Assembly (NCBI GenBank): GCA_021399435.1
Contig: JAJTUP010000083.1
Coordinates: forward strand, 124,001 to 188,000
From: Diaporthe sp. PMI_573
Taxonomy: Eukaryota; Ascomycota; Sordariomycetes; Diaporthales; Diaporthaceae
Direction: 5' to 3'
Length of the DNA stretch: 64,000 bases
The stretch's first letter is position 1; the number at the start of each line of letters is the position of its first letter. The translations under genes were made by a program, and so were the position numbers. This document shows positions 23,201-64,000 of this stretch, piece after piece. Below the pieces are notes generated by a model. That model was not told where the DNA came from and ran no database searches. It saw only the letters and a list, made by a program, of their open reading frames with translations.

Positions 23201-23438
23201 TCAATGCCTCAAGAACTGGGCTAGGATGGGTATGTTCAATTGGAAAGAGATGGGAGTTAGTAAAGCCTCTGGAGAGAGCTCTGGAGGTTAGTCTAGGCCT
23301 AGGACAGTTTAGTAGGACTTGTCAAATACCACAAGTCAAGTCAAATCTACGTCAGAAACAAACAAATATAGCCTGAAAATAGGCCAAGTCGACAAGTCTG
23401 GGGGCCGACTTGACTTACTTGGCTTGTTAGGAACGCTG
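20281..23438 (+). mobile_element. hAT transposon 1, complete, with 8-bp TSD
   Basis: A 3158-bp element with terminal inverted repeats CAGCGTTCCTAATAAG (left) and the complement of CAGCGTTCCTAACAAG (right). It is flanked by an exact 8-bp duplication, gttggggt, at 20273-20280 and 23439-23446. Subterminal regions hold many copies of 'caagtcaag'/'cttgact', typical transposase-binding repeats. It carries one intact transposase ORF. A perfect duplication, intact ends and intact ORF indicate a young, possibly autonomous copy. It interrupts a PHD-finger gene fragment. Confidence 0.95.
20649..23291 (+). CDS. hAT transposase
   Basis: An 880-residue transposase that cuts and pastes its own element in the nucleus. 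The frame is open from 20571, but 20649 is the first ATG ('MDTPSSTALSDADDF'). A BED-like zinc finger lies near residues 95-150 ('FLCKHCESIG ... GRHLKKQH'). The RNase H-like core holds 'ITFDLWTSPNN' (first Asp), 'GFFTADNADSCD' (second Asp) and 'IRCFGHVLNLSAKAF' (the CxxH motif). 'DNDTRWNSIYLMI' follows. The C-terminal hATC dimerisation region is 'WWISRKGKWPRL ... TIPAMSSECERCFS' with the catalytic Glu. No frame break was seen. Confidence 0.93.
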   Translation: MDTPSSTALSDADDFSNGLTAGNDAFSVLRRASSSNSLSFTYQTASIRADDIRGAKDVDELPKIKLKSDGRVNTYILEAWLHKKRKRNSWIQPHVNCLVRLNPDDTHEDVFLCKHCESIGITKLFDGEATTSAGRHLKKQHRIFPDGELQDQDGDEPLAKRQAIIDFAKTSSSGKSSQRLVVRTAAEEFKNLLMGWIIDANIPFYGIEHPLFRELLLVLNRDFINELLPESADTVKNWITMEYETRKTLLKREFQVARSKIHITFDLWTSPNNIALLSIIAHFVDTSGKLQIRLLSLERVEGSHGGENQARIMVQLFRDFDISKKVGFFTADNADSCDTAVRAILKALKPHLTEYQRVKLERQVRIRCFGHVLNLSAKAFLEGDSSEIFDSAYNKDNLDVDTELRLLKEWRKYGPVGKLHNAVHFIRRSSQRRDQFLAITTGRIRADVLQELGLWLIEKDVVGLMVKADNDTRWNSIYLMILRAIKLKDIIDTFCRLSRTDEKPEKRIPEDVLQHEDWLVLTEILEILKPYIEYTKYFEGREPRFAEVISTVCCLQDHLKEMQKRYNEGLVGTPFETPQIDLEEPSFGSSDSAESCIFVAGDESQMPRRSQREIRLPTRLQDFEVDISSPRQASSIPQSRSSPPESPRATEELQLGDLSLRYIQHSLEFASKKLEKYRNLMEETGVYWAAMILHPAHKTRFIEVYYPERKEAIVKDFRALFDDSYVDRASGSSQPVPQNAQEKKTKTPWITKGNYYQTQQPRLMDEIEDYLSEPPRPLAEEETNQGGGEEAEDLISWWISRKGKWPRLYRMAIDFLTIPAMSSECERCFSVAKLQISSQRHRQHFATMKSCQCLKNWARMGMFNWKEMGVSKASGESSGG

Positions 23439-30009: not shown

Positions 30010-32910
30010 CAGGGTAGGGAATCAATCCATCCACGTCAATATCCGACTTTGTGGATGGAATTGACGGCTTACTCAGCAAAGTGCTCGTGGATTGACGTCC
30101 ACGAAGCCATCTGTGGATTGATGTCCATAATATTGAACCCGTGGAAGACCCCTGTCACGTTAACTCGGATTTCCTAATCGGGCAATTCGGGAACCCGTCG
30201 CCGAAACTTTCTATTGCCTTACTCCTGGCGCTCCTCCAAACCAGCCCGTTCAACAGCCTCCTGTAACGCTGTATCGTCAAGCAGTATGCTATCGACATCT
30301 TCGATAATGCCTGCGCGTAACCAAGATCGCAGCGTTTGGATTAGTCCAATCGTCCCGGCGTCTAAGCGGTTTCGGAGGGGCGTGACCATCAACCCGGTGG
30401 CGGAGAACAGTCTCTCGCACTCCGAGCTCATGGCCGGCACTGTCATGACGTCAAGAGCCATTCGAGATAGCCTTGGATACTCAAACCTCTTGAGGACCCA
30501 ATACTCAACTGGGTCTGCGACGTCCTTGTCGCTCCCAGACACACTGGCCTGCCAGCGGATATATTCATCCGCTTGAGCAGCGGACGGTTGGCTTTGACGG
30601 TATCGGTTGCGATACCGATCAAAGGAGGACAAAGTCGTCTTTCGCCTCTTCACAACCGGACCTTCAGGAGAGGTGACTGTGATCTGTAGGTCTCTGTATT
30701 CCGTATCCCAAAGACGTTGTACGATTTCCTTCGCTTCATCGACCCAACCTGGATGCTGTTGACCCCAAACCTCGTCGAAATAGTCCCATCGTAGGCTAGG
30801 ATGCAAGGCGGCGGCGGCGTAGTATGCTGGCGAGTCCCTCAAAGTATTGTAATATTTATCGAGCTTCTTCCAGCCAAGGTTGATATTGACACAGAATTGC
30901 TCCGGTTCAGGATGCCTCTCAATACGCGATTTTGCGTCCTCGAGCCTCCCAAGTAGAAATTCGAACGCCTCCAGCACATCAGTCATGGAACCAAAAGCTT
31001 CCCTAACTCCAGACGATCGACATCGCGACTGTCCGTCTCCCTGAAGTACTTGCACAACGACGTGGAAATCAGAGAGTATCTCATCAAATGTCCTCAGCAC
31101 CGCCCAATCGCTCTCGTTGATGAAGCTCGACTCCTCGAGGCAGGGAGGAAGCTTCTGTCCACCCTCACCTTTCCGAGCGTCTCGGAATAGCCGCTTGGCT
31201 TTGGCGATGAATTCTTCGTAGACGGGCTGCAAGCGAAGCATTCGTTTTATCATGTAGTATTGGGACAACCATCTAGTATCGTTGTCAAGGACAACGTCAA
31301 CTGGCCGTTGCTTTCCACTTTCAGGCTCGCCAGAAGCTGCAAATGAGTCTCGTTGCAGTTGACGAAGCAACTGAGTCAGTAAGTCGGCCCGATGGACCCA
31401 AACGACGAAGTTATGCGCTTTCCCGACAGGACCCTTCCGCATCCACTGGTCATGGGTTGCTCTCGCCAAAGGCTCCTCCTCGACGAGAGATTTCTCAAAC
31501 GCATCAACATCCTTTCCAAAGAGAAGGGATTTAACAACAAGGTTAAGGATGTGTCCCATGCATCGAACTCGTCGTTGAACCGGGTCGAACTTCAGCTCTT
31601 CTGCAATCTCTGCCATTGCCGTTTCATTATTTGCTGCGTTGTCGAGAGTGAAGTAACCGACCTTGTCCTCGATGCCAAACGACCTAATGATCTCGAGGAT
31701 CTCGGCGGCAATGTTCTCGCCAGTATGTCGTTCTACCAGCTCCGGAATGCCGAGCACAACTTTTTGGAGCTGATTCTCGTGGTCTCTGAAGACAGCCGTC
31801 ACGCCACATAACGCGTGACGATTCCTAGTCTTTGCGCCGTCAAAGGCAATGTGGATCTGACCCGACGACCTCTTCAAGACCTGCTGGACCGTGCCATGAT
31901 ATCGCTCGAATTGTTGAACCGCCAGTCTGTGCACAGTCTTCGCCGTAATGTGCGCACTCGTAACCTTGACCGCCGGATTGAGGTATTCGAAAATCTGTTG
32001 CAATCGAGGGTGTTCAACCTGCTTGAACGATTGCTGGCTTTCGACTATCCAGTTGACAATGAGCTTCTGGAACTCTCCTCGATCGAAGCGTTTGATCAAG
32101 CTATTGGCCAGCGCTTGCTCCTTTGGATCGGAACGTTTGAGGCTCATGAAGTCCGAAATAGAAGCAAGAACCCTCTTGCCTCCTTTCTTCTCTGACGGTG
32201 TTGATCGTCGTCCTGATGGATCCCAGTAGCCGTGAGCTTTCCAGAGGTGGAGTTCAGCGTTTTGGGTGCCTTTGGATTCGTATGACTGTGGCGTGGGGGT
32301 CTTCTGGCGCACACATGGCATACAGATCCATCGTCGGGATGTTTTGGATTGAATCTCGACCCCGTAGTTCCATACCCATGATAGGGTATCTTTGCTGCGC
32401 TCGGCCAACGTAAATCCCTTCCAGACGCGGAAGATTCTCCGCTCCTCATCACTTGTTGGTGCCCAAGTAGAAGGCTGGCGGAGTTCAGGGTCTGGATCTA
32501 GAGAACGCCGAGGGACCTCGGCATGCCCCTCGTTGTTGGTCGGTAGTTCAGGGTCAAGAGGTAAGTCCGCCATCTCGAAGTTGAAGGTTCACCGAGCGTA
32601 TGAATCGAGTAAAGGAGGAGACATTCGGGTTCAGGCGTTATAACGCGTCGCGACGTGCCACAACGCGTCCGACGTTTGCCTGATTAGATCTGTTAGTGTT
32701 TGCGCAGAGATACGTAGCAAATATTAACGACATATATCAGGGTACCCATACCCCTGACTAGCGTCCACGTCAATCCACATCTCAATCCACGAGCCCCAAC
32801 CGTGGATGGATTGATTACGTAACAATAGGTCTCGTGGATTGACGTTGACGTGGATTGAAGTCAACATATTGATCAATACCGTGGAAGTCGTGGATTGATT
32901 CCCTACCCTG
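30010..32910 (-). mobile_element. hAT transposon 2
   Basis: Ends are CAGGGTAGGGAATCAATCCA at 30010 and its exact reverse complement, apart from the last base, ending at 32910. Subterminal repeats of 'cgtggattgac'/'gtcaatccacg' fill both sides. The 2.9-kb element has one intact transposase ORF on the minus strand. The flanking octamers (ctctccac, caccatac) do not match, so the target duplication has decayed or one side is rearranged. The right flank is the tail of an NLR gene. Confidence 0.88.
30219..32573 (-). CDS. hAT transposase
   Basis: An intact 784-residue transposase. A BED-like finger lies near residues 80-125 ('ICMPCVRQK ... NAELHLWKAHG'). The catalytic core holds 'HIAFDGAKTRNRHAL', 'GYFTLDNAANNETAM' and 'VRCMGHILNLVVKSL'. 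'LDNDTRWLSQYYMIKRML' follows. The hATC region reads 'EYPRLSRMALDVMTVPAMSS', then 'ECERLFSATG' with the catalytic Glu. It is a different family from the transposase of hAT 1 (different ends and low similarity outside the motifs). The frame has no break. Confidence 0.92.
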   Translation of the reverse strand: MADLPLDPELPTNNEGHAEVPRRSLDPDPELRQPSTWAPTSDEERRIFRVWKGFTLAERSKDTLSWVWNYGVEIQSKTSRRWICMPCVRQKTPTPQSYESKGTQNAELHLWKAHGYWDPSGRRSTPSEKKGGKRVLASISDFMSLKRSDPKEQALANSLIKRFDRGEFQKLIVNWIVESQQSFKQVEHPRLQQIFEYLNPAVKVTSAHITAKTVHRLAVQQFERYHGTVQQVLKRSSGQIHIAFDGAKTRNRHALCGVTAVFRDHENQLQKVVLGIPELVERHTGENIAAEILEIIRSFGIEDKVGYFTLDNAANNETAMAEIAEELKFDPVQRRVRCMGHILNLVVKSLLFGKDVDAFEKSLVEEEPLARATHDQWMRKGPVGKAHNFVVWVHRADLLTQLLRQLQRDSFAASGEPESGKQRPVDVVLDNDTRWLSQYYMIKRMLRLQPVYEEFIAKAKRLFRDARKGEGGQKLPPCLEESSFINESDWAVLRTFDEILSDFHVVVQVLQGDGQSRCRSSGVREAFGSMTDVLEAFEFLLGRLEDAKSRIERHPEPEQFCVNINLGWKKLDKYYNTLRDSPAYYAAAALHPSLRWDYFDEVWGQQHPGWVDEAKEIVQRLWDTEYRDLQITVTSPEGPVVKRRKTTLSSFDRYRNRYRQSQPSAAQADEYIRWQASVSGSDKDVADPVEYWVLKRFEYPRLSRMALDVMTVPAMSSECERLFSATGLMVTPLRNRLDAGTIGLIQTLRSWLRAGIIEDVDSILLDDTALQEAVERAGLEERQE

Positions 32911-34225: not shown

Positions 34226-37200
34226 TTAGTTGCCCGACGGTTGGTTTGCGTCAAGTCGGCCCGTGGCTATTGCGAATCGTATCGTTGCCCGAACGGCCTC
34301 TAAGTTTGGAGACCAGTCTTTGTTATCTGATGCTGATTTTCCTCCTAGATAGAAAGAAATGTTGCTTCTGTGCGTGTTTGTACACCGGAGCATCTCCATC
34401 CGGTACGCCGTCCATTTTCTACATCGGAAGAGGAAGTGTTTTACTGTCTCTGCTGCTTGTCCACATGCGCACTGCTCTGACGGGGCTACCCCGATTCGGT
34501 GGAGGTAAGCGTTGAGTCTTGCCATGCCTGTTCTGAGTTGAGCAAGCACAGTGGCCTCCTTCCATGTTAGACGGTCATAGAGTTGCGTTGTGTGTTTGCC
34601 TGGCAATGCTGTGTCGACTCTCTTAGAGTGACTTCCAACCTTTTCTGGAAGGTGCTTGCTGGCGCCTGTCTTGGAACGAGCTACGTTGAGAGTAGTCGAC
34701 CGCATCCTGGGCGTTCCTGCTTCTGGAGTGGCACCGGGATGAGTGGCCTCTCTGGCGTTTTCCTTGGCAATTTTTAGGAGCTTGTCTCCTTCGCTCGCAG
34801 GGAGCCATCGTATTGCCACTATGTTTCCGCGTTTGCGCATTTCTCCGACAGCCTCATAGATGTGGCGGGTATGCTGTTGGCCAGACTGCTGTCGAGGTTG
34901 CCGAAGGGTGAGAACGGCCGCTTTGTTGTTCGTTGATAGCACGATACTGCTAGATCTGAGCGTTGGTAGCGTGCTGAAAGCGCGCTCCGTCGCTGCCAGC
35001 TCTCCGGAGTATGGGTTTTGTTCCGATCTTGCGCCGAGTGTAGAGGAAAAGGTCCCAAGCTTTGGGCTACCACAGACGGACGCGGGCAGCGAGACAGCCC
35101 CCCCAATTCCCACCACGCCGTTTCGTGCTGAGCTGCTTACGGCGATGCGCACATCGTAGTTGTCCGCTGACTGCGTCGCTGTCAAGTCCTCAGTAATGGT
35201 CTGTATGCGTTCCTCCCATGGCGATAGCGTGAACGGGTTGATGATTTCTAACTTCTCCATTGCTATGCCTTTCAGTGCGTCTGCCACCTGGTATAGCGGC
35301 GAGCGGTGTCGTTTTCTGAACTTCCGCATTCGAGACGTGTTTCTGCGTAGTGGATTGGTATCTGGCAGGGTGTGAATGTCGGTCCACAGCTTGGTGGCCC
35401 GTCTCCAGAACCGGTCTCGTGCGCTGGCGATGTGAGCCTCCGCTTCTGCTACACTCGTTGCCACTGTGAGGAAGGTCCCCACGATCGCTTGCGCCGCCAT
35501 TCTCTGGACCCTGTTGATGGGTCCCACGAGTTTGTCCTTGTATGCGTGCATCCATACACTGGAGGCGTAGTCCACCACCGGGGCGACTGTGCATGTAAAC
35601 AGCTGCCGCGCCGTGGATGGGGACAGGCCTCGGAGTCTCCGCAGTTCCATTGCTGCCTCCAAGCCCTTGGACGCAGCCCTCGAAATGTGTTGTTTAAACT
35701 TCAGCTTTGCATCCATAACCACTCCGAGGATTTTGACATGGTCCTGAGGTTCGACAGTCTGTCCCTTGACGATGAAAGGTAGCGCGTCCGTCTTGTGTAA
35801 ATTGCGAGTGAAGTGTATGATTGCTGTCTTATCAGCCTCGAATGTTGCACCGCTCCTTCTCTCCCAATCCAAGGCGTTCTTGATAATGGCGTCGATGCCT
35901 TCCCGGTTGCTCCGTGCCGTGGGTCCCGTGACCCACGCGTTGAAGTCGTCAATGAAGGCTATCGCACCCCCATAACTATCGATTCGTCGTTGCACTAGGT
36001 CTGCGTTGAAGAAGAGGAATAGAATCGGAGACAGGGGAGAGCCCTGTGGTAGACCAGCCTGCGGTAAGCTCTGAACCTTAGAGGACTGCCCGTTAACTTG
36101 GATCGTTGCTGTACGCTCCGAGCAGAATGCCTCTATCCATCGGAGCAGTCCCTCTGGGATGCCTCGCGCCCTCATCCGCTGAAGAAGTCTTTCCTTGCAG
36201 ACTCCGTTGTAGGCCCCTTTGACATCAAAACTGATCAGGCTGACTATCTTTCGACCTCGCCAGGCAGTATAGATCTGTTCTTGGAGCAGCACGAGCGCTT
36301 GTTCCGCAGACCGCTGTTTACGGGCCCCGAAGTGGTTAGTCGGGAGGAGCCCATACGTCTCGACCGCGTGAGAGATCCTTTCCGCGACTACCGATTCTAA
36401 CACCTTGCCGAGCGTTGCTAGAAGCGAGATTGGTCTCCAGGCTTTAGCCACTGTATAATCCTCTTTGCCAGGCTTCTTAAGTGGTATGATCCTGGCGTGT
36501 CGCCACTGGACGGGCAGCGTCTCCTCTGCTAGAGATGCTCGAAATAATGCGAGGACATGGTGTTTGACCACTGGCCACGTCTCTTTCCAGACTACCGCAG
36601 GCAGGCCGTCCTCGCCGGGCGCCTTCCAGGATTTTGCGGCGAACAGTTGTCGTTCCACCTCTTCCATGGTGATAGGAGGCAGCGCTAGGGGGGCTCTTTG
36701 CGGCCTGGGGCCTTCCTCTTCAATCCTCTCTGGCAAGGGAGGGAAGAAGTTGGTTAGAAGTTCTTCTGCCTGTTCCTTGTTGTCGGCGGTGACTGTTCCG
36801 TCCGCTTTGACGAGCTGTGGTACTTTTCCAAATGCTGTATCGTCGCCGGACTTCAGGTACTTGGCAGCCCTCCAGATATTTCCGTTGTCTGCGAGGAACT
36901 CGTCCCAGTGCTTCTTCTTTTGTTGTCGGATAGCGTCGTGATATTGCTTCGCAGCCCCTTTCGCCGTTTCTCCCAAGCCTAGTACAAGTCGCCCCGCTCG
37001 TCGTTCGGCACGGGCGCGATTTCTCCAGTATGTGTATATTCGGCGCAGTTGCGTCAGGTCGGTTGTCCACCATCGCTTGGCGTATGGTGATGGTCTCGCT
37101 TTTGGTGTCAAGGCGTTTACCGCCTCTAGAACCACTGACATCAGTCTATCGGTCTGCTCCTGAACTGTGCCACTAGACGGGGTTGGGCCCAATTCCGTTG

Positions 37201-38041
37201 CAATCCTGGTGTTTATTTTCTTCCAGGGTGCATTCTTGAGCAGAAGCCGGTCTTGCTGCTTCGGTACCGGGACCAAGGTGTCAAAGACTGTCTCGATTGT
37301 GCGGTGATCTGATCCGTGTTCCGCTCCGTGGACCGCACATTTTACTACCGAGTCTGCTAGCTCAGCAGAAGCTAGTACCAGGTCGATGGTCGTGTCGTAA
37401 TCTCCACCGTGCCATGTCTTCGTGCCCCGTGGCAGCAGACTGTTCAAGGCCAGCTCGTCCATGAGGTCGATGATTCGATCCGCTTCACCCTGCCTTACCA
37501 ACGACACATCGTCTCCTCCCCACAGTTGGTCGTGCCGGTTGAAGTCCCCTGAAATTACCACGTCCACCACCATGCCTGCGTTCCGCCTTACATCCATGAC
37601 TATTTTGCGTAGGTTGTCGCACGTGCCCCGCAGGGCCTGGGAATCCTCCCTTGGTACATAGACCGACACCACCAAGACCCGTCGACCAGGGAGCCTGAGG
37701 ATCGCTGCTGTCATGTCCGGGGATGGTATCGGTACTTGTTCCGCCTCCACGTCCTTATTCACCCAGAGCATACTCCGAATAGCCCATCTACCTTCCCTCC
37801 AAGTCGACGGAACCATCTTGATCCATCTGTGATGCCCCATAGGGGTAGTCAGGAGTCGACCCTGAATCCTTCGTGCTTGAGGTTCCTGGATGGCTAGCAC
37901 TGTTGCGTCCTGGATGTCCTTGTCGTTCATCAAGCTGTCGTGCACTACACCCTGCTTCCTTACATTAAGCTGGATTAGCCGTAGTGTCCTATTCATGTCG
38001 GGACGGATAGAGCTTCCGGCAGTTTCTGCTGAACGATTCAT
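34226..38041 (-). CDS. LINE ORF2: endonuclease, reverse transcriptase, RNase H-like
   Basis: About 1270 residues from the first ATG; the frame is open from 38071. The apurinic-type endonuclease opens with '[10 protein letters not shown]' and 'VLAIQEPQ', and has '[15 protein letters not shown]' and 'GSDHRTIE'. The reverse transcriptase has '[11 protein letters not shown]', '[12 protein letters not shown]', '[17 protein letters not shown]' and the catalytic 'AFIDDFNAW'. The C-terminal part aligns with RNase H ('[14 protein letters not shown]') but has Ser in place of the first Asp ('AVSSSARNG', usually TDGS) and Asn for a later one ('LSTNNKAAV', usually SDN). A terminal Cys/His cluster ('[20 protein letters not shown]') closes the protein, as usual in fungal LINEs. 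ORF2 overlaps ORF1. Confidence 0.92.
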
Positions 38042-39326
38042 GAGGGCCGGCGCATAGGACGCATTTGGCAATCACTTCACCACAATCGCCGTGGCGGTGG
38101 CCCTCCTTGGCGCATCTCGCACACACCTGAGGGTTCCTGCACTGGAAAGCTTTATGCCCGATCTGCTGGCAGTTGTAGCATTGTTCAGGTCGCATCCGAC
38201 GCTCGAACACCCCCGTACACCCAGATTCACCTCCGGCGTAGAAGAAGCCCTCGTTCAGGAGCGTTCTGGCGTCAGCGGTTTTGGTGACATACACCACCAT
38301 GGATCCATACGCTTTTGCGCTGTCTTTTCGACTCAACCAGGCCACCTTGGCGACCTGTATGTCGTTCTCACGGCCCAGAGCTTCAGTGGCCCCAGGGAGG
38401 ACCTTGCCTTCGTAGTCAAGGACGGCCGTGCGGTTGACATTGTCGACCTTGACTGGGTACAGCTGGTCTCGAAGGACTCTCGCACCTGGCGCCTTCTTAG
38501 CTTCAATAATATCTTTGATTTTCTTTACTTCTTCTTCGTTCCTGCCCATGATCCTAAGGCGGTTGGCATTTCTTCCATCTTTCGTCACCGCAACACAACG
38601 CCAACCCGGCTGGTCGCCAGGTGCTCGCATTTCGTTTTCGATAAGCTTGCGAAGTGCCACTGGTGTGGCTTCTCCAGTGTGTTCCTCTGGTACCCTGGAC
38701 ACATCCACCGTGCAGAACACTGGTTCTGGCGTTGCCGCCCGACCTGTGGAGGAGGCCGGGGTGGGAATGCTAACCGGAGGGGTGCGTCGAGCGACGTCTG
38801 CATACGCTGGTCGAACCGATGGGGCTCCTTGAGCTCCCGCCATGGCGTGTAGCTGGAGCCTGGTGTTCTCGAGCTCGCCGCGAGCTTGCGTAAGCTCCTC
38901 TCGCGCTTGCGATAGTTCTTGGGCCAACTGGGCCGTCATTTTGGCGACTTCCTTTGTCATCTGATCCCTAAGTTTTCTGAACTCTAGCTGAAATTCTGCC
39001 TTCATGATGTCCAATTTCTTATTGAAGTCACGGTCCACGGGTTGTTCTGGGCCGCGGCTCGCCTCGCTCGCGTCGTCGGCGGCTGCAGCCCGAATTGTGA
39101 GGTTTTCGTCGTTTCTCAGCACCCTATCACTGCCGTTTTCCTCTTCCCAATCCATATCGTCTTCCTGTCGCATCGCCTCCATCGCCTTCGCCGTTTTCAC
39201 CCTCTTGCGCTGGGGGCGGCGATGCCCCGCTCCCGGAGTTTCGGAATCGCCTCCCATGACGTCGATGACGTCTGAAGCGCCGCGCGCCGCACCAGACATC
39301 TGCCACAAGCCTAAATTCTCCGCCAT
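37989..39326 (-). CDS. LINE ORF1: Gag-like RNA-binding protein
   Basis: 445 residues starting at the ATG at 39326. The first third is charged, followed by a coiled coil ('[20 protein letters not shown]'). The C-terminus has zinc knuckles: '[14 protein letters not shown]', then '[14 protein letters not shown]' and '[15 protein letters not shown]'. Such proteins bind LINE RNA and form the particle used in target-primed reverse transcription. The end overlaps ORF2 by about 50 to 80 bp in another frame, which suggests termination-reinitiation or frameshifting to express ORF2. Confidence 0.9.
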
Positions 39327-39534
39327 ATGTCCAGAAGATGAAAAGAAGATAGATTCAGAGTGATTTGGAATTCGTGTTTTTTTTTTTTTTTTTTTTTGTT
39401 TTTTTTTACAGTGAAAGGCGCCTTAAAGTACAGTTGTGGTGGTTGTTTGCTTCGACAATGTGGTAGTGGTCCGGTCTTGTACAGCTTGAGTAATCAGGTG
39501 CGTCTGCACGTGATAACTGCGCGAAGAGGACACT

Positions 39535-52880: not shown

Positions 52881-53100
52881 TTCCCGTCAACTATACTTGT
52901 TGAGTCTCGCTTCTGGAAATGTATTTGTCGGCTACCCATACTCAGTCAGCAACCTGAGGTGCTGGAAAAGCTAGAGGGCACAGCAACCAATATCAGCCTG
53001 CCTGGCATAAGAGATATGCGCAGCTATCGGGAATCGTCTGCGTTCTGCATGATAGCACAGGCATCAAAAGACAGGCAGGCGTTCAAAGGTCGAAAGTGCC

Positions 53101-55920
53101 GCGTCGAATCGCCCTTCTGAAACACAGCCTACAAGCTTCAAGAATCTGCTCCAGGCATGCTTGAAGACGCAGTGGCCAGGAAATGCGTTTCAGGCCTCCA
53201 ATACGACAAAGTATCTGCTCAAAGCACCCTACAACTCTTATCAGAACGGGGTGGCAGAAAGGGGGATTCGAGAACTTTGCGAAACCGCAGCGAAGTTTGC
53301 CATAATGACACAGATCCCCCGAGTATTTTGGTGCTATCTCTTCGAGACGACAGCTGCGGTCCTCAACGTGATCAGCCGTGACAGCACACCGGAAGGGAAG
53401 ACCCCCAGCCAAGGGTTCTACGACGAGTTCTTCCCAGACCGTGATAATGTGCCGGACCTTGAAGGGTTTAGGATCCCGGGCACAAGGGTGACTATCCACG
53501 TCCCCAAGGAGAAGCGAGTGCGATCAGCAAAGACTGCAGCTCGCGCTCAGCCGGGGATATTTCTAGGGTACGCGGATACCCACTACCACCCACCGAGCTG
53601 GGCGAACTACTGGGCTTACAACTTTACCACGAAAACTGTGGAAAGAACGCCTCATTTGACGTTTCACGAAGACGTTAGCTCTGATCAGGACTGGTGCAGG
53701 GACCCTGATGCAGAAAACAAAGACGTTCTGCGGACATTGCCGCCTCGTGCGCGGCGCAAGCTCGCCAAACGCCCATGGGCGCAGAGGGAGCAGCCCAAGG
53801 AAGTTGGGCCCGTGAAGATCACGTTCAGCGACGGCACTGTGAATGCTGCGTGGTTGTCCCGAGACCTCGAAGAAGACGACGCCGTCTCGGAGGGAGGGAG
53901 TATTGACAAAATTCCGGCTAAGCAGCAGCCAACTTACTCCTTCAACGCCCTTGCCAGATGCCTTGAAATCTTTAACGACGACTGGACTTTCTCGGTCAAG
54001 TATAACCCCGATCCAGGGTCAATCAAGGAAGCGCTTCAGCACCCAACCGAAGGCAGAGCGTGGCGGGAAGCCCTCTATAAAGAAATTGGGACACTGATTC
54101 GGACAGGCACTCTGGCCTTTAGATCACGTGATGAGGCAAGGAAGGGACGCCTAATTGGAGCCAAGATAGTCACACACAGGAAGCGCGATGCCTCTGGGGT
54201 AGTGACGAAGCTCAAAGTACGCGTGGTTGCAAAAGGCTTCACGCAAATCCAAGGGCTCGATTACAATAGCACCTTCGCCTCCACCGCACGAGCAACCTCG
54301 TGGCGTACGATCATCGCACTGGCGGCGGTTAGGAAGCACAAGATCCTACAGATCGATTTTGTGGCAGCTTACCTCAACGGCAAGCTCGAGTTCAGACTGT
54401 TCATGGAGCTCTTCAACGAGCTGAAGCAGTATATGGCTGATTACCCAGCCGTGGCGGAAGAGATGGCCTATACGCCCGATTCCATCATTGAACTCCTTCG
54501 GCCCCTCTATGGCCTCAAGCAGGGAGGCCATGACTGGCAAAACACTGTTCGGGGCACAATGGAAGCCATGGGCTTCCGCACACTGAAAAGCGACTCTGCG
54601 GTCTATCATAACGACCGTACAGGAGTCACTGTGGCGACACACGTAGATGACTTCCTCATCACGTCGCCTACAGAGCGGGCTAGCCAAGGAACAATAGACG
54701 AGCTCAGCCAACACTACGAGGCTGAAGACCTCGGCCTAGCCCAGTGGTACATTGGAGTCAAGATTGATCAGAACAACGATGGCATCGTGCTCTCACAGCA
54801 GGCATACATCAAAAAGGTTCTATCAGATCACGGCTTTGCAGACTGCCGGCCCGCAGATACCCCGATGGCATCAGGGGCGCTTGCTTACGCCGTCCCAAAC
54901 GAAGCTTCGGCCTCTGATCAGGAGTGCCACGAGTACGCTTCGCTCGTGGGATCAGAGATCTACCCAGCGTGTATCACACGGCTGGATATCGCCTACACTA
55001 CAGGTGTGTGGGCAAGGTTTATGGCGAACCCATCGCCGGCGCACCTACGGGGCGCAAAGCGGGTGCTCCAATACCTCCGACGCACGGCAGGACGCCGCCT
55101 TCGCTACCGATCAGAGGGCCCGGGACTGGGCCTACACGCCTACTGCGACGCCTCGCATAACGACGATAAGGAGACAAGCAGGTCAACTATCGGGTTTATC
55201 ATAATGCTGGCAGGCGCCGCTATCAGCTGGTCCTCAAAGCTGACAACTCCCGTACCGCAATCAACGTGCGAATCAGAGTACTACGCGGCCTACCTTGTAG
55301 CCACAGAGCTGGCTTGGCTGCGTGAGTTTCTTACGGAGTTGAACGAGGAAGAGTGGGTTCGGGAACCCATCACCGTCTACAGTGACAATCAGGCCATGAT
55401 CGCCGTCGCCAACAAGTGCGAGGTAACCAAGAGAACTAAGCACATTATGGCTAAGTATCACTATACCCGGGACGAAGTTAAGAAGGGTAATCTGGCCTTT
55501 GAATACATCCCATCACGGGATAACGTGGCCGACCTTCTAACGAAGTCACTGGACCGAAGCACGATGGATCGGTTACTGATCAGAGCTGGAATGGAATGGG
55601 ATGATGCCGACGAGCGCCTCAGCATGCCAGGGAAGCCATCGCAACTTGGGAGCGGCGTGGCTTCGGAGGGAGTGTTGGAAGGCAGCACTTCGGACCCGTC
55701 GGACCCGTCGGGGCCCAGCGTAGGGTGCCGTAGCAGCGCTCAGGCCCATGTGGCCCCATAGTCAAAGCGCCACTCCGTTCAGGTCAGCGCTCATCGAGAT
55801 CCATGAGAGGTAAGCAGGTCAGGTTATAAGATGGGTGGCTAGACGCACTAGAATCACAATGTAGTTAGGAATCGCAACATAGCACGGAATGTTCAGATCC
55901 TGATCTGCCCTCAAGCAATC
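53101..55920 (+). mobile_element. Copia retrotransposon, 5'-truncated
   Basis: Only the 3' two thirds remain: integrase C-terminus, RT, RNase H and the start of a 3' LTR. The LTR begins TGTTGGAAGG at 55673 directly after a purine-rich 'cggaggga' tract (polypurine primer). The polyprotein's last ~30 codons run into it. The LTR end is uncertain (about 55.9 kb). Gag, protease and the zinc-finger/first-Asp part of integrase are missing, and there is no 5' LTR. The element ends within about 150-350 bp of the P450nor stop codon. Confidence 0.85.
53161..55761 (+). CDS. Copia Pol polyprotein fragment (integrase, RT, RNase H)
   Basis: 866 codons with no stop. It starts inside the integrase core at 'APYNSYQNGVAERGIREL', which holds the catalytic Glu. 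'RAQPGIFLGYADTH' and 'TPHLTFHEDV' follow. The RT spans about residues 300-560 with 'VRVVAKGFTQIQGLDYNSTF', 'QIDFVAAYLNGKLE', 'LLRPLYGLKQGGHDWQ' and the catalytic 'VATHVDDFLI'. The RNase H has 'LHAYCDASHNDDKETSRST', 'STCESEYYAAYL', 'VYSDNQAMIAVANKCEV' and 'IPSRDNVADLLTKSL'. The frame is also open for some codons upstream of 53161, but without recognisable integrase. The long open frame indicates a fairly young copy that lost its 5' part. Confidence 0.92.
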   Translation: MKTQWPGNAFQASNTTKYLLKAPYNSYQNGVAERGIRELCETAAKFAIMTQIPRVFWCYLFETTAAVLNVISRDSTPEGKTPSQGFYDEFFPDRDNVPDLEGFRIPGTRVTIHVPKEKRVRSAKTAARAQPGIFLGYADTHYHPPSWANYWAYNFTTKTVERTPHLTFHEDVSSDQDWCRDPDAENKDVLRTLPPRARRKLAKRPWAQREQPKEVGPVKITFSDGTVNAAWLSRDLEEDDAVSEGGSIDKIPAKQQPTYSFNALARCLEIFNDDWTFSVKYNPDPGSIKEALQHPTEGRAWREALYKEIGTLIRTGTLAFRSRDEARKGRLIGAKIVTHRKRDASGVVTKLKVRVVAKGFTQIQGLDYNSTFASTARATSWRTIIALAAVRKHKILQIDFVAAYLNGKLEFRLFMELFNELKQYMADYPAVAEEMAYTPDSIIELLRPLYGLKQGGHDWQNTVRGTMEAMGFRTLKSDSAVYHNDRTGVTVATHVDDFLITSPTERASQGTIDELSQHYEAEDLGLAQWYIGVKIDQNNDGIVLSQQAYIKKVLSDHGFADCRPADTPMASGALAYAVPNEASASDQECHEYASLVGSEIYPACITRLDIAYTTGVWARFMANPSPAHLRGAKRVLQYLRRTAGRRLRYRSEGPGLGLHAYCDASHNDDKETSRSTIGFIIMLAGAAISWSSKLTTPVPQSTCESEYYAAYLVATELAWLREFLTELNEEEWVREPITVYSDNQAMIAVANKCEVTKRTKHIMAKYHYTRDEVKKGNLAFEYIPSRDNVADLLTKSLDRSTMDRLLIRAGMEWDDADERLSMPGKPSQLGSGVASEGVLEGSTSDPSDPSGPSVGCRSSAQAHVAP

Positions 55921-56047
55921 TTTGCACAGCATCTTCCCCTGACCTCTCGACATATTCTTTAGGTAGCCAAAGTACTGCTTATTTAGATTTTTAAACCTAG
56001 TATTTATTTCCTTAGGTCTAAATATCCTGTCTCATTAATAATAGTAA

Positions 56048-57761
56048 TCACCATGCTACCGGCAGCGCCGCGACACCGACATCTTTAATGAGTGGTGTGT
56101 ACTCAAGCTCGGCGATAGGGACGGTGATGCAGAGATTAGGTAGCTTCCGGTACAGAGTTGCTATTTCGGCTATCAGTAAGGTCTCCATTATGTATCATGC
56201 CTCACAAAGTGCAAGTGGACACGAAATCGGAGTAGTAGAGTGGAAGAGACTAAAGCGACATGGGGAGGGAGAGGCTTACCAAAGACAATCTCCATCTCGG
56301 CGCGTGCGAGCGGCTCGGCGACACACCTGTGCGGTCCGAAGCCGAAGCCCAGCGCGTGGTTGGGATCCGGCGTTCGGTGCATATCGAAGACGTCCGGGTT
56401 AGCGAAGACATCCTCGTCCCTGTTGCCAGACTGGTTCAAGGCGATGATGCCCTCGCCTGCCCTGATTAACTGTATTTAGTGCTCCCAAGGTTAGCATGCC
56501 ATTCTTACATGGAGCCGGAGTTTGTCGGTGGGGTGTGAGATGGTGGAGCTAGTAGCTTACCTTTCCGCCGATCTCGACGTCCTCAGTGGCGACTCGCTTC
56601 ATCGCCATTGAGGAGCCGGTGTGGTACCTGCAGAGCTCCTCGACGAACGCCGCAGCGAGGGACGGGTCGGCCTTGAGTTCGTCAAGCTGCTTCGGGTTAC
56701 GAGCGAGCTCGATAACGCCCTGGCGGCGCATTGTCAGGTACGAGATCCGTGACAAACGGGGAATGGAAGGGGCGGGAGGGGGGGTGGGGAAGACTTGCGA
56801 GCGCGATCATGTTCACCATCGTGGCGTTGCCTGCGACCAGGAGCAGGAAGGCGATCTGCACGGCGTCGGAGCGCTGGATGTGGCCGGGCCTCAGCTGCTC
56901 GACGGCAAGCCTGCTGATGAGGTCGTCCTTGGGCTCCTTCGAGCGCTTGTCGACCAGCTTTGCGAGGTAGTCGAGGAGTTCCCTGATGGGATTTCAGCGT
57001 ATGTTAGTCAACTGGGAGACATGGGGAGAGCGGACTGGCTCGCCGCCTGCGCCTGCAGAGCGGTCCCGCTGCCATTCGATCGGATCGCGTTCTGCTGCGT
57101 GAGGTACTCGAGGTCCTCAAACGGGACGCCAAGGATGGTGTAAATGATCTTGCCAAAAGACGGAATCAGCACAGTCCAAAGCACGATATTCAGGCTTGGC
57201 TTCACGTTTTTTGAATGAGACTCACATATGACGGGACATGCAGGGCAAAGCTGGCAACCAAATCGACAGGCTCCTCGCACCCCTTCTTGATCATCTGGTC
57301 GAGCAGGTCGTCGACGGTCTTCTGGATGTACGGCTTCATCGTCTCGACGTGGTCCTTGACAAAGACCGGCTCGACCATGCTCCGCTGTTCCATGTGCGCC
57401 GGCGCGTCCATGTCGACAAAGGTCGGCTTGTTCTTGGCCGCCGCCTTGCCGCCGGCGCTGAGCTCGGGAAAGTCCGGCCTGGTGCGCTCCTGTTCTTTCG
57501 CATCAGTATCGGGCTCACTCTGCCGACAAGTGAGTATGGCCGGGGTTGGAGGCTTTGGAGCAAGTCACTCGCCTTAGACAGGCGCGTGTCCGTGGCCACG
57601 GCGCAGACATCCTTGTACTTGGTCACGATCCATGCGACGGAGCCGTCGAAGAGCTTCACGCGGGAGACGGGCTCGGAGGCTCGGAGGCGGGCGTACTCGG
57701 CTGGCGGCTCGAGGCCGGAGGCGCGCTTGAAGGGGAAGCTGGGCGGTGGGGTGACGGCCAT
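56048..57761 (-). CDS. CYP55A: Cytochrome P450 nitric oxide reductase (P450nor)
   Basis: Seven exons (57761-57573, 57489-57226, 57148-57036, 56982-56799, 56719-56561, 56469-56280, 56160-56048) give 403 residues, the length of the Fusarium oxysporum enzyme. It reduces two NO to N2O, taking electrons directly from NAD(P)H. The start 'MAVTPPPSFPFKRASG', 'EYLTQQNAIRSNGSGTA', the I-helix 'LLLVAGNATMVNMIAL' (Thr243) and the haem loop 'LGFGFGPHRCVAE' (Cys352) all match that family; both residue numbers equal those of the Fusarium protein. There is no presequence from this ATG, so it is predicted cytosolic. The frame stays open ~39 codons further upstream (Arg/Ser/His-rich) but without an ATG. Introns 1 and 4 use GC donors (GCGAGT, GCAAGT); intron 3 has a weak GTCCGC donor. 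It is divergent from nirK and shares its upstream region. Confidence 0.95.
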
Positions 57762-58144
57762 GATGCTGCGGGTTGAGATTGAAAAGTGATGAGAGCTTGG
57801 AAGGCTTAAGGAAACAAAATGGCGGTGCCGAGTTCGTGGGCCTTGTGTCTGATGTTGTGCTTCTTCGCAGGTGGAATCTGCCGGCGAGGTCTGGTCGTTT
57901 ATTTATCTCATTGCAGTGTCCTTTTCTTCCCGGAGACAGCGACGCAGCACGGCGGCACATCTCATGGTCGTCCCGTACCAGTGTTTCTCCGTCGTAGCTG
58001 CACAGAACGGTCATCGAGTGGGTGTGGTCTGATGGTAACATGACCGGGAAATGGCATGCACGGGTATCGCGTGCCATGGCTTTACAGGGATATCATCGGC
58101 ATGCAGAGGGATGCGCTGACATGGGACGGGATGGGCGGGTAGAT

Positions 58145-58154
58145 CTCCGCGGAG
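58145..58154. promoter_or_regulatory. NirA/NIT4 site, perfect palindrome CTCCGCGGAG
   Basis: It contains both the Aspergillus NirA consensus CTCCGHGG (on both strands) and the Neurospora NIT4 octamer TCCGCGGA. It lies 384 bp upstream of the P450nor ATG. Zn2Cys6 nitrate regulators bind such sites; binding here is inferred. Confidence 0.5.
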
Positions 58155-58804
58155 TTGCCCAGTCTCTCGCCATTAAACCGAATCCAGACGATCTTGTTAT
58201 ATAATAGTCAGACCACAAAGGTCAGCTAACGGACCACATGCTAGTGGTCTTCATGCGTTGCTTAGAATACCATAGGTTTTCTTCGCATTTCGATGACGGA
58301 TCGATGGAGAAAGGAGTGCATCTCCAGATGCCGGCATTTGTCACCGTGGGTGCCGCCAGAGTTCCGAATCGGATTACCTTTGTATACACTGCTGAGTTAC
58401 TAACACAGTGGACATCGACGGGGGGAGGGGACCAACTATCGGGCCATGAACTTGACCGTTGCCTTGCCAGCAGTGCTTTCCTGCCTTCCATCCCGGCCCT
58501 TCCGATCAAATTCACTGTCATTCATGTATACTACTTCAATTTCTTCCCCAATTCCAAATCATGGGATCATTGGATTTCAAATCGAGTTTACGATTTGTCC
58601 TTGTGACAGGCCTTCTCTATCTACTTCTCGCAAGGTTGTATCCGATTACACATACAAAGTCACTAGCGCAAACTGCACGAGGAGGTCGTTACAAATGACG
58701 GCGCCTCATTCGTCCAAACATCTGTGCAGCCGTGTTTGTACAATGTGCGTCAGCGTCATGACGATACATCACGACCTGCGTGCCAGTGTCGTGGCTGTTG
58801 CCGA

Positions 58805-58812
58805 CTCCGTGG
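58805..58812 (+). promoter_or_regulatory. NirA consensus site CTCCGTGG
   Basis: Matches CTCCGHGG exactly, about 445 bp upstream of the nirK ATG and 15 bp from another match. Confidence 0.4.
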
Positions 58813-58826
58813 AGATGGTTCAACTG

Positions 58827-58834
58827 CCGCGGAG
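58827..58834 (-). promoter_or_regulatory. NirA consensus site CTCCGCGG (minus strand)
   Basis: Reads ccgcggag on the plus strand. It is paired with the site at 58805-58812 in opposite orientation. Confidence 0.4.
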
Positions 58835-59256
58835 ATGCTCAACCCAAGCCGATTTATGCCCGTGTTCAAGTGATGTTATTCCATGATCTAATGCCGAAAG
58901 GGTTCCGCTCGGCTAGGTTACCTCTTTCTATTCCTCGCTTAAGCCCTCGAAGCTTCCGACTTCGACGCCCGACACAGCCGCAGCAGAGCCTCGCAACCCT
59001 CGGCCGAGATCCTTTCTCAACCTCTTTTCCAATGGCATTTACATATCTATATGCAGCAGTATATGGTGTCTGATTACCAAGGTTGTGTATTGGGACCTCG
59101 CCTCCTCCAAGCCCTCGTCCATGGGCCGATTGCCCTGGTATAAGGTAATCACCCCGGCTCGCTCAGTCCTGTGCGTACCGAGATCAAGCCCATCGGTCCC
59201 AGGGATCATTATCTGTTTGCTCTTCCCCATAAGTTCTGACCAAGACGAACGGCCTG

Positions 59257-60688
59257 ATGGCGGCAAGCTGGAATATCTCTCCGGCAGCTAGCCGACTCAT
59301 TTTCAAGGGGGGGCGGGGAGGCCTCACCGCCGCCCTCGGTGCAACTGCACCTCGAAAGTTATCTCAATACGCCAGAAGAACTCTCTTTATTGGAGCTCGA
59401 TGTCAGTCTTTAAAATCGCGCGCTAGAGATAACCTAAATTATGCACGCTATGTTCCCATCTTCGCAGCATTGACCGGCCTGGTCCTCAGTGCGCTTTTGT
59501 ACAAGCGCAGTGGCTCGAGTCCCATCAAAATGGAACTTACACCAGGGTTTCATAATTTTGTAGATGAGACAAAATCTAATGAGGTAAGTCCTATAGTTAG
59601 AATTGAGATCTCGGATCGAAACTGACACCCTGCAGCCCCATATCATGATTGCCCCTGCCATTGGGGCCGAACCGAAATTGGAGGTTTTTGAGACCATGGA
59701 CGAAATATCAGACTTACCAGTGGAAGATGCGATCCTGACAACGGCCCCTGAAGTGCCACCAGTGATCACAAGAGACCATCCTGCCCTTGTCAAAGTCCCG
59801 TTGGTGACTACGACTAAGCTGGCACAGCTCACGAGCCAGTATAAATATGAGCAGTGGACCTTCAATGGCACAGTTCCTGGGCCCTTTATTCGAGCCAGAG
59901 TTGGCGATGTTGTCGAGCTGACTCTCACCAACAAGGATAAGGCAGGCAACCCTCACAATATTGACTGCCACGCGTTTACTGGGCCCGGCGGTGGTGCTGC
60001 GGTCACCACAGCAGAGGAGAACGAGACCAAGACCGGTCGCTTCAGGCTGCTCTATCCGGGACTCTACGTCTATCACTGTGCAGCAGCACCAGTCCCCGTT
60101 CATATCTCCAATGGCATGTACGGACTCATGTACGTGCAACCCGCGGAAAACGATCTTCCCCCCGTGGATAAGGAATACTACGTGATGCAGAGCGAGTTCT
60201 ATCACGAGCCGCCAGAGGTTGATGACGATGGACGACGATCCGAAATTGTCGAATTTTCATATCCCAATGGGCTTCGTGAAGAGCCCCAAGTTGTCGCGTT
60301 CAACGGCAGCGAGTCAGCCCTTACCAGAGATCACCCTCTCAAAGCCAACGTTGGCGACGATGTCCGAATTTTCTTCGGAAATGCTGGTCCCAACCTCACG
60401 AGCTCATTCCACGTTATTGGCTCTCACTTTAGAAACGTTTATCGAGACGGCGACGTGATCAGCCCCCCGTCCAAGGTCGTCCAGACCGTCTTGGTTCCCT
60501 CGGGTGGCTCAACAATCGTGGACTTGAAGATGGCTGTCCCAGGAACATACGCACTCGTCGATCACTCCATCTTCCGTATGGATAAAGGAGGTGTCGGGTT
60601 TCTGAATGTTTCGGGCCCACAAAATCCAGCCGTGTATCAGAGTACCCAACCGCCGAGCCCCTGCGTGGGATGCAAATTACACGCCTGA
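59257..60688 (+). CDS. nirK: Copper nitrite reductase, mitochondrial type
   Basis: Two exons (59257-59583, 59636-60688) around a 52-nt intron (GTAAGT, CTGAC branch, TGCAG) give 459 residues. The enzyme reduces nitrite to NO. Residues 1-~65 are rich in Arg/Ser/Ala ('TAPRKLSQYARRTLFIGA') with no acidic residue, then a hydrophobic helix ('YVPIFAALTGLVLSALLY'): a mitochondrial presequence with sorting/membrane segment. The two cupredoxin domains follow. Type 1 copper ligands are His216, Cys257, His265 and Met270 ('PHNIDCHA', 'VYHCAAAPVPVHISNGM'). Type 2 ligands are His221, His256 and His419 ('LVDHSIF'). The catalytic pair is Asp219 and His368 ('SSFHVIGSHFRNVY'). All are present. It is divergently paired with P450nor, which removes the NO it makes. 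The start was chosen as the first ATG of the frame that includes the presequence. Confidence 0.95.
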
Positions 60689-61358
60689 TTAGATCGTCTC
60701 CGGCCCCAACTGGGGTCCTCTCCTCTCATTCAGTGGTCATGGGTCAGATGAACAGCTAAGCAGACATAGGTCACCATATTCAGCTAGGATCTGGGACGTG
60801 AGGAAGGTCATACTCGGCCAGCTCTTGATTTGAGGGATGAAAGGGAGGGCTGTTCGTGATTAGACAGAGAGAAAGGGTTAGACAAATTCTATGCAGAATG
60901 ATTTACGGGTAGATTTGGATACAGATTGAATAAGGCGGGCAGGAGCTTTGGACACGGGGCATTGTCAATGTCAATGTCATGTTCCAACAACACTTGTAGC
61001 TGAGTGCAGACCTCAACTCTTAGGTAGTCCGCAATATGAAACCCACACATCACGTCAACTCCTTACCTCTCCAAGCCGTGATACTGCAAAATGCGAGTGT
61101 CACACACATCAGAAACGCCCTAGAAGAAGCATATTCGGTTAGACTAGATGTGTGCGCACCTCCATTTAGGTGCCTAGGTACTTAGGTTATGCAGAGACGG
61201 AATAGCTCATGCACCCTCGTCACGTCACGTCACCAGTCAGCAAGTCGCGAGACCCCACTGGGCACATAAGAAGGATGTAGCCCCGATCCCCTCTCTTTCC
61301 CTTTGTCAGTGCTGCTTCTTCTGGAGCAGAGATGGAAGCTGGCCTTGCGAAATAGGCT
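60689..61358. other. Gap 3' of nirK, no gene seen
   Basis: Probable nirK 3' UTR and spacer. No coding pattern. Confidence 0.5.
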
Positions 61359-61877
61359 TTGGAAAGCTTTGGCCCGTCTTCAGGGAACGTGAGATGCCTG
61401 CATTTCCGCAAACCACGCCCTACAAGTGGCGGTTTGCGCCTGCAGCAAACATGCGTCTGGACTGTGAATTGCCAGGACTTATCGCCGCCGGCCCGATCTT
61501 CGAGCCCATATTATCAACCTCGGATGCCGGACGAGGCATCCGGAGCCTTGTCGTCCGGGCCCCTGGCGCTTCTCTCTACGACTTCAATGCCTATCATTGC
61601 CAAGCGTTTAAAGAGGTGCAACAACAAGACCTTCAAGGAGAAGCTGTCCCCACTTAATCCATTTGAAATTGAGCTTTGGTCCATCTCTTCAACGCAGAGG
61701 CAGCTCGAAGATAGCGTTGAATACTTCGCAGCGGAGGACATCTCCGACATATTCAAGTTCGGCGTACGAAAGGAAAGGCGGCACGAGGCTCAGTATTGGC
61801 TCCAGCTTTCTCGTCTAGGTATTGATAGTGAGCGGCAGTGGGCCAAAGGAAAGACTAACCGTTCTGACGTTTCCTAA
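61359..61877 (+). CDS. Unrecognised ORF, 172 codons
   Basis: The second half is charged and helical ('SSTQRQLEDSVEYFAAEDIS', 'KERRHEAQYWLQLSRLG') and could be a real exon. The first half competes with an overlapping frame at 61394-61657 ('AANMRLDCELPGLIAAGP') that also looks coding, so an intron or frameshift may join the two. Family unknown. Confidence 0.3.
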   Translation: MESFGPSSGNVRCLHFRKPRPTSGGLRLQQTCVWTVNCQDLSPPARSSSPYYQPRMPDEASGALSSGPLALLSTTSMPIIAKRLKRCNNKTFKEKLSPLNPFEIELWSISSTQRQLEDSVEYFAAEDISDIFKFGVRKERRHEAQYWLQLSRLGIDSERQWAKGKTNRSDVS

Positions 61878-62122
61878 CTTCGTGGCTGCCTCGCAGATGA
61901 GATTTGCCATGGCGCTGCACGTGTTGTCATTCGTTCCGGAAATGGTTTCTAGCGTCCAGAGTCCTCATAGCCGTAGATAAAGTGCCGGCGCTGTGAATTG
62001 GAGCACGACAGGAAGAAAAGCGTGTATAGATAAAGTGGGTGTTATTGCACATTGAAAAAAGAAAAAGAAGAAAAGAAGAAAACGCCTCAATAATAGTCTG
62101 CTTAACCCCGGGCCAGTTGCAC

Positions 62123-63191
62123 TCAATTATCATGTGATAGTATCTGCTTGATCTGTGCTGCTCCCTCTAGAGGAATTAAGACCGAGACTCGAGCACATTC
62201 GGTCGCAGTCCTCGATACGACCATCGAAATACATGTCGTGCATTCATCTTCCCTGCGACGCTCTTCTTGATATCCTGGACCAGATAACACCACTTCTGCC
62301 AACATGTTCCCGAAAGTGGTGTAGATGGGTGCCAACTGGCAGCCTTCAAGCACCACTTCGTCTCTGGCCGCGTCTGCCCCACAAGGGGGTACCGAATCCC
62401 GTCTTGGTTCTCCAAGCACACTTTGAACAGTTGAGAAGCGATACTTTCTATCCTTCTGGGCGTCACCTCAATATTGAGAGAGGCGACCCGATCATCCTGT
62501 GTAGGCGTTATAGACACAGCGGCGGTCGATCCGCCATCCAGTTCGAATGTCGTACGATCGCTCCTGCAAGGTACTCGGGGAAAAAGAAGCTACAGGCAGT
62601 GATAGATGCTTCATCCATAAGCCAAGAGCTGTATTCATGCGAGACGCCCTGCTGTAACGACTGTGGGCTGCTGTCGTGATTCGAGGTTTGCAGTGCCGGC
62701 TCATTTGAGCCAGGTGATGGTGGCAGGAGGCTAGAGCTGCAGTCATAGGCGATGTTCAAGCCGGAGTCGCCATCACCCTGTTGAGATCCTGCCCCACCAG
62801 AGGAGATTTTGACTCGATCGCGTTTGATCTCGCGCCGGCGACTTCTTCTGATCCACTTCTCCAAATCCTTCGCCACGGGTTTCAACGCTGCCATGAGCTG
62901 CTCCGCCGCTGCCTGACGATTTTTGGTAGACAGTCTATCAAGGATTGTGACTAATCCCTTCCGCTCAACCTTCTTGGGCTGTTTGCCTTTGACGTCCTCC
63001 ACTGTGTATTGGGTAAATAAGTAGGCGATGCAAGCTGACAGGCCACCATAGTCGAGGAAAATTCGTTCTGTAGAGTTTTTGTTGGCGGTGTACACCTTCG
63101 CCAGGCGTCTCTGAACTGCCGGTGGGATTCTCTCGCGCTTTCCCACTTCCCAGAGAAGAAGTTCGACTTGTTCTTGATTGAGAGGCGGCAT
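62123..63191 (-). pseudogene. Fungal protein of unknown function, two frameshifts
   Basis: Frame 1 (63191 to ~62510) starts 'MPPLNQEQVELLLWEVGKRE' and has 'SACIAYLFTQYTVEDVKGKQ', a basic stretch ('KWIRRSRRREIKRDRVK') and 'MADRPPLCL' before a stop. Frame 2 then reads 'TPTQDDRVASLNIEVTPRRI' to 'ETKWCLKAA' near 62350. Frame 3 continues 'LAPIYTTFGNMLAEVVLSGP' and ends 'IPLEGAAQIKQIL' at 62123. The three read as one protein of ~340 residues, so single-base losses near 62510 and 62350 are inferred. It resembles a lineage-specific fungal family of unknown role; I cannot name it. Confidence 0.5.
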
Positions 63192-63532
63192 AGTGGTACA
63201 AGATTGAAGAGTGAATACATTGGGACGAGGACAGAGTTCTGAGGGATCAAGTCCCTCTTATAATCTCGCCAGTATCTGCTGATACGTCTTGATTCCTCGC
63301 CGCACATCCTTCACATCTCCTACTCAGCCACTTCATGGGGCCTGGAATAGAGAATCTGCATACTGGCGGCGCATGCACAGAAAAAAGGGGGAGTGGTGTG
63401 ATGGCTTTATTTCTTTGGCTTACACTAGACCAGGGCTCGTCTCACCGAACAACTTCAGCAGGACAAAGCTCGGGATGGAATGGACGATGCAACACAATGG
63501 CTGACTATTGTCGGCCAACACTGAAAGTATAA
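63192..63532. other. Gap, no gene seen
   Basis: Nothing supported before the ankyrin-type fragment. Confidence 0.4.
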
Positions 63533-64000
63533 TTCATCGGGGATGCTGATTCCCTGCCCATGACTATTGTCCAGGTTAGCCTAGCATACCTGCTAGGGAT
63601 TGACCATAGTCTTTTGGTTGCACGGATCAGACAGAACTTCCCCTTTGCTTCCTATGCAGCACAATACTGGGCAGGCCAGGCTGTAATGGTGGAGATAGAA
63701 AGTGAAGAGACTCAACAGCTTATAGCTGAGTTCTTCAAATGTGGCAACGCCTATAAACGTTACTATCAGCTGTACTGCCTTGATCAGCCATGGAAATCAG
63801 GCTTTGAAACGATTGAAAGATGCCCATCTCCTTTATTCTATGCATCTGTTGGAGGCCTTATTCATTCCTGCCAGATGCTGCTCGAGAATGGCGCCGATGT
63901 GAACGCCAAGCGAGTACGATCTCGATCACAAACAACAGCAAAAGACTGTTCAACACAAGACCAGCCACACACGACGACTATCTGTGGGCAGGAGACAGGC
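63533..64000 (+). pseudogene. NACHT/ankyrin-type NLR fragment, cut by the window edge
   Basis: An open frame with no stop to the end of the window reads 'VSLAYLLGIDHSLLVARIRQ', 'NFPFASYAAQYWAGQAVMVE', 'ERCPSPLFYASVGGLIHSCQ' and 'MLLENGADVNAK'. The 'YAAQYW' segment and the first ankyrin repeat are typical of the region after the NACHT domain in fungal NACHT-ankyrin proteins. After 'NAK' the sequence no longer follows the ankyrin pattern, so another junction may lie at about 63910. The NACHT domain itself is not in the window. It may be part of a larger broken gene. Confidence 0.5.

Follow-up and report, generated by a model that had tools for sequence, protein, structure and literature searches.

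A head-to-head nirK–P450nor gene pair at the junction of two duplicated blocks in Diaporthe sp. PMI_573

INTRODUCTION

In fungal denitrification, NirK makes nitric oxide (NO) from nitrite and P450nor converts NO to nitrous oxide (N2O) using NADH (reduced nicotinamide adenine dinucleotide). Fungi are not known to possess an N2O reductase, so that their denitrification genes contribute to the release of this greenhouse gas. A stretch of 64,000 nucleotides from the ascomycete Diaporthe sp. PMI_573 (C200:124001-188000; ‘the window’), taken from a genome of 83.7 Mb in 217 contigs (the strain is listed as assembly GCA_021399435.1 in PMC12526002), carries nirK and P450nor head to head with their start codons ~1.5 kb apart, which raises the question of how the two genes came to lie side by side. 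Both are real denitrification genes, and it is likely that their head-to-head order is the product of a recent rearrangement in this strain that brought together genes from different sources. The reduction of NO to N2O with NADH by P450nor is described in PMC5691058, and the ties between fungal NirK and the mitochondrial chain in a review (PMC10889981). The titles and abstract openings listed by literature searches revealed neither a head-to-head nirK–P450nor pair nor a transfer of nirK into Diaporthe, and earlier reports of P450nor transfer or linkage may exist.

TWO INTACT DENITRIFICATION GENES

The P450nor gene (Table 1) was spliced into a minus-strand model of exactly 403 residues. When compared with the P450nor of Fusarium oxysporum (CYP55A1; 1xqd) it aligns over residues 6-402 with 607 bits (E 1e-181); amongst solved structures the 12 rows for the F. 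oxysporum enzyme score 602-607 bits and the next P450 scores 309 bits. The heme ligand Cys352 is in register between the two proteins, as are Thr243, Ser286 and Asp393, residues with functional roles in P450nor. A full-length similarity well above that of other P450s, with Cys352 and Thr243 in register, identifies the gene as a CYP55 by its sequence, and the product would presumably catalyse the NADH-dependent conversion of NO to N2O as its F. oxysporum counterpart does. When the same splice pattern is placed on a second copy of the gene (on contig C79), the resulting protein is letter-for-letter that of a public record (P0001). Introns 1 (57572-57490) and 4 (56798-56720) begin with GC rather than GT (GC-AG introns), both in that copy and in the other two that were found.

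The nirK gene opens with an ATG at 59257, is interrupted by a single GT-AG intron of 52 bases, and closes with a stop codon ending at 60688. The best solved relative of its product is 1kbv (311 bits; the entry is named ‘Major outer membrane protein PAN 1’), which we take to be the Neisseria protein AniA. Alignment to 1kbv, together with motif positions, places the type 1 copper ligands at H216, C257, H265 and M270, the type 2 copper ligands at H221, H256 and H419, and the catalytic pair at D219 and H368. In these ligands, and in its full-length match to fungal NirK, the protein resembles the mitochondrial NirK of other fungi and the class II (AniA-type) enzymes; unlike them, it is encoded by four near-identical copies in one Diaporthales genome. 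The N-terminus has its first acidic residue at position 58 or later, 11 Arg/Lys residues within positions 1-57, and a hydrophobic stretch at 63-81; like other fungal NirK, the protein may be targeted to mitochondria.

A preliminary description of the window had named both enzymes and pointed to the 403 residues, Cys352 and Thr243 of P450nor, to the copper ligands and Asp/His pair of NirK, and to the head-to-head order of two complete genes. All of this is confirmed by searches of solved structures and proteins, by the spliced model and by the 1kbv alignment.

THE PAIR STRADDLES A JUNCTION

When the genome was searched with the DNA of positions 56000-60700, the two halves of the query matched different contigs. 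The copy counts obtained from such searches are lower bounds. At least four copies of nirK are present (on C200, which is the contig of the window, and on C139, C179 and C4), all with frames free of stops and intact as spliced genes; they share 98-99% DNA identity, and the four blocks differ by 0.58-1.08% over 2,405 bases. At least three copies of P450nor were found, on C200, on C71 (with an identical coding sequence) and on C79 (with 15 amino-acid differences); two remoter P450 matches, on C162 and C35 (28-30% identity), were left out of this count. Of 24 coding changes that are private to nirK copies, 11 are found in codons 52-84 (59408-59510 of the window, and the same stretch in C4 and C139), the region of the putative presequence and the hydrophobic stretch. 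Most of these 11 are C-to-T or G-to-A changes.

The pair straddles the junction between two separately duplicated blocks, one shared with C79 and the other with the remaining nirK copies (Table 1), and the five bases between them match neither side; this context is missing from the preliminary description. Only one of the four nirK copies, that of the window, was found joined to P450nor. Two of the three P450nor copies carry the junction: positions 55952-58890 recur at C71:50090-53029 with 5 differences, a copy that includes the junction and stops before the nirK start codon, whilst the C79 copy is ordinary. As this junction occurs on two contigs whose flanking DNA differs, it is not readily explained as an assembly error. 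Each gene has kept its own upstream DNA (~664 bp for P450nor and ~826 bp for nirK), so that no shared promoter is seen and co-regulation is not implied.

The unjoined nirK copies allow the events on this side of the breakpoint to be ordered. Upstream of it they carry DNA that is absent from the window, ~325 bp being common to C139 and C4 and ~130 bp being present on C179. This unjoined upstream stretch and positions 58431-58509 of the window match one and the same gene-like stretch on C196 (80% and 76% identity, respectively), which from its look alone we take to be of DUF3176 type, and the alignment crosses the breakpoint unbroken, as it does in C139, C4 and C179. Because the C196 homologue runs without a break over this point, the unjoined order is the older on the nirK side, and the joined nirK–P450nor order is derived there.

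THE TWO GENES HAVE DIFFERENT RELATIVES

Trees were built from hand-chosen proteins: 46 rows for NirK (45 of 120 listed proteins plus that of the window) and 55 for P450nor (54 of 120 plus that of the window). NirK groups with that of Fusarium decemcellulare (support 100/99), with which it shares 86% identity over its whole length (73% with F. solani), and it does so inside a 12-row clade (98/94) of 10 Fusarium and two Diaporthe rows. A constraint that kept the 10 Fusarium rows together and Diaporthe out was rejected (approximately unbiased (AU) test, p 0.00145). After the tree had been rebuilt without F. decemcellulare, holding 13 Nectriaceae rows apart from Diaporthe was rejected as well (p 0.00143). 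No other Diaporthe is named amongst the 120 listed NirK proteins, where the names within one cluster of 11 members (P0121) are not shown.

In contrast to F. oxysporum P450nor, the Diaporthe protein falls with Colletotrichum rather than with Fusarium. It lies in an 18-row clade (100/99), the rest of which is made up of Colletotrichum, D. eres, D. vaccinii and one environmental row; its position inside that clade has a support of only 64/52. A single clade of the five-row Diaporthe set, in which the environmental row is included, was rejected (p 0.016), and a grouping with the P450nor of F. decemcellulare was rejected at p 3.5e-66. Since NirK groups with F. decemcellulare whilst the same grouping is rejected for P450nor, the trees indicate that the two genes are not jointly derived from one F. 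decemcellulare-like donor. The P450nor proteins of D. eres and D. vaccinii (P0018 and P0019) sit inside Colletotrichum, apart from that of PMI_573, which suggests a separate transfer of the gene for these species.

A PROPOSED ORIGIN OF THE PAIR

These observations can be arranged into a sequence of events. The nirK gene was most likely acquired from a Fusarium-like lineage, and segmental duplication would then have carried it, with a few kb of flanking DNA, to at least four places. One of the copies would have been joined, apparently by end joining that left five filler bases, to DNA upstream of a P450nor of different, Colletotrichum-related source, and part of the joined DNA may have been copied again to give the C71 copy. 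By analogy with F. oxysporum, NirK, probably in the mitochondrion, would use respiratory electrons to reduce nitrite to NO, and P450nor would convert two NO into N2O with NADH. The two genes of the pathway, apparently of different source, would thus have come to share one neighbourhood, and the unjoined sister copies in the same genome serve as built-in controls, which makes the origin of a fungal metabolic gene pair directly testable in one strain.

Several points weigh against this proposal. On the P450nor side the order of events is not polarised, as matches to the C79 DNA past the junction do not exceed ~60 bases anywhere else. A hand calculation that scatters the three P450nor and four nirK copies uniformly over 83.7 Mb expects a spacing of 1.5 kb or less between the two genes in about 4 of 10,000 cases, a figure that was obtained after the fact and that overstates the rarity if duplicated blocks gather in transposon-rich DNA; a purely accidental join needs such clustering or luck. 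The clades for the tests were picked after the trees had been seen, and the nirK record of F. decemcellulare may be unreliable, coming from a contig of 4,307 bases. The 13-row Nectriaceae test also excluded Cephalotrichum, an exclusion that may by itself explain the rejection, and the fairer test (again without F. decemcellulare), in which 14 Nectriaceae-plus-Cephalotrichum rows were held apart from Diaporthe, was less strongly rejected (p 0.0127). Even within Fusarium the gene does not track the species, since three other rows (P0139, P0143 and P0154) fall in different parts of the NirK tree. Finally, the P450nor transfer may have run in either direction.

ALTERNATIVE EXPLANATIONS

It is possible, if doubtful, that the pair represents a cluster at its birth, in which a Fusarium-like nirK was amplified to four copies and one of these was fixed beside a P450nor of other source because neighbourhood or copy number aids nitrite respiration or the control of NO. 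A selected, co-regulated denitrification cluster, in which the pair was kept, or the join favoured, because NO does less harm when NirK and P450nor are expressed close together, is unlikely. Both genes are intact, and their proximity is rare under uniform placement. Amongst the 12 other species named in both lists of 120 proteins, three were seen by eye to carry nirK and P450nor on contigs whose lengths are equal, below 180 kb in two cases: Xylariaceae sp. FL0662B (122,099 bases), Pleurostoma richardsiae (176,797 bases) and Plectosphaerella cucumerina (2,285,534 bases). The equal lengths suggest that both genes lie on one contig in these species. Linkage of nirK and P450nor may be recurrent in fungi, and no other observation speaks as strongly for a functional reason. 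In both trees the Xylariaceae and Plectosphaerella genes lie close to one another, a pattern expected from joint descent and not shown by the Diaporthe genes.

On the other side stand the derived order, the separate upstream regions and the C71 copy of the junction, which lacks nirK itself. The preliminary description had also held that intactness suggests selection, and here the two genes differ. The 24 private nirK changes comprise 15 non-synonymous and nine synonymous, near the simulated neutral share of ~70% non-synonymous, and the simulated chance of no stop arising in 24 random coding changes is ~0.49; as the copies are young and the changes near neutral, the intactness of nirK is weak evidence of selection. 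For P450nor the argument holds in part. Its differences from the C79 copy amount to 30/1,212 in coding DNA (2.48%), 31/496 in introns (6.25%) and 32/648 upstream (4.94%), and the gene is under some constraint. The earlier picture of a locus held together by selection is not upheld, given that the joined order is derived, that a single nirK copy of the four is joined and that the genes have different phylogenetic relatives; nor is that of an inherited or jointly transferred cluster, for which the derived junction and the tree positions are equally at odds.

Vertical inheritance of nirK in Diaporthales with many losses, the grouping with Fusarium then being an artefact, we consider quite improbable. 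The NirK tree includes one Diaporthales genome only, and fungal orders are mixed elsewhere in it, with Plectosphaerella, Madurella and Xylariaceae rows clustering together; the separation from Fusarium that this history calls for was nevertheless rejected in all three tests, least strongly once Cephalotrichum was allowed.

That the pair is the ancestral order, from which the other nirK copies broke off, is very improbable: the presence of the junction on two contigs would fit, but the upstream DNA shared by C139, C4 and C179 is missing from the window, and the breakpoint is spanned by the C196 homologue.

Carriage of the copies as cargo of a Starship giant transposon is hardly credible and was rejected, for although the genome holds 53 DUF3435 matches, including a partial one ~13 kb away from nirK on C139 and, on C79, a partial one interrupted by stops ~280 kb away from P450nor, there is none on C200, C71, C179 or C4 (four of the six copy-bearing contigs), the shared blocks are just 2.5 to 5.6 kb long, and their ends differ between copies (the far flanks were not read).

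SURROUNDINGS OF THE PAIR

The features of the window are collected in Table 1. Inspection of the block edges by eye revealed no inverted repeats or target duplications, and no transposon ends at the edges of the nirK block. No TTAGGG array is present anywhere in the assembly, so that this motif is uninformative on the proximity of a telomere. Repeat-induced point mutation left no sign in the window when judged by thresholds for two dinucleotide ratios: across its 16 segments of 4 kb, TpA/ApT was 0.60-0.83 and (CpA+TpG)/(ApC+GpT) was 1.11-1.38.

Table 1. Coordinates of genes, blocks and mobile elements in the window.
Feature	Position	Strand	Remarks
nirK gene	exons 59257-59583, 59636-60688	plus	459 residues, 2 exons, intact
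P450nor (CYP55) gene	57761-56048	minus	403 residues, 7 exons, intact
P450nor exons	57761-57573, 57489-57226, 57148-57036, 56982-56799, 56719-56561, 56469-56280, 56160-56048	minus	
Junction	58425..58431		C79-type P450nor DNA ends at 58425; nirK-copy DNA starts at 58431
P450nor block	56041..58425		matches C79:726744-729181 (92-96%)
nirK block	58431..64000		shared to differing lengths: up to 60835 with C179, up to 63566 with C4, and as far as the window end with C139
Remnant of decayed gene-like stretch	58431..58509	plus	C196 homologue continues across breakpoint
Copia-element long terminal repeat	55776..55952	plus	abuts P450nor block; many genome copies, at least 40 further matches listed
Copia-type element open frame (RVT_2)	53056..55758	plus	adjoins 3' side of P450nor
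hAT transposase dimerisation domain, long open frames	20529-23285 and 30225-32588		
LINE-type (long interspersed nuclear element) long open frame (endonuclease and reverse transcriptase)	34232-38071 and 37992-39422		including upstream gag-like frame (by look)
Open frame, 249 codons	62511-63257		common to C139 and C4 nirK blocks

The 249-codon frame within the nirK block has no Pfam match, and its one relative in the protein search belongs to the same strain. A partial copy of the first hAT frame (20529-23285), at 99% identity, is found on C71 close to the second copy of the junction. The genes around the pair are not all broken, a long LINE-type frame being present.

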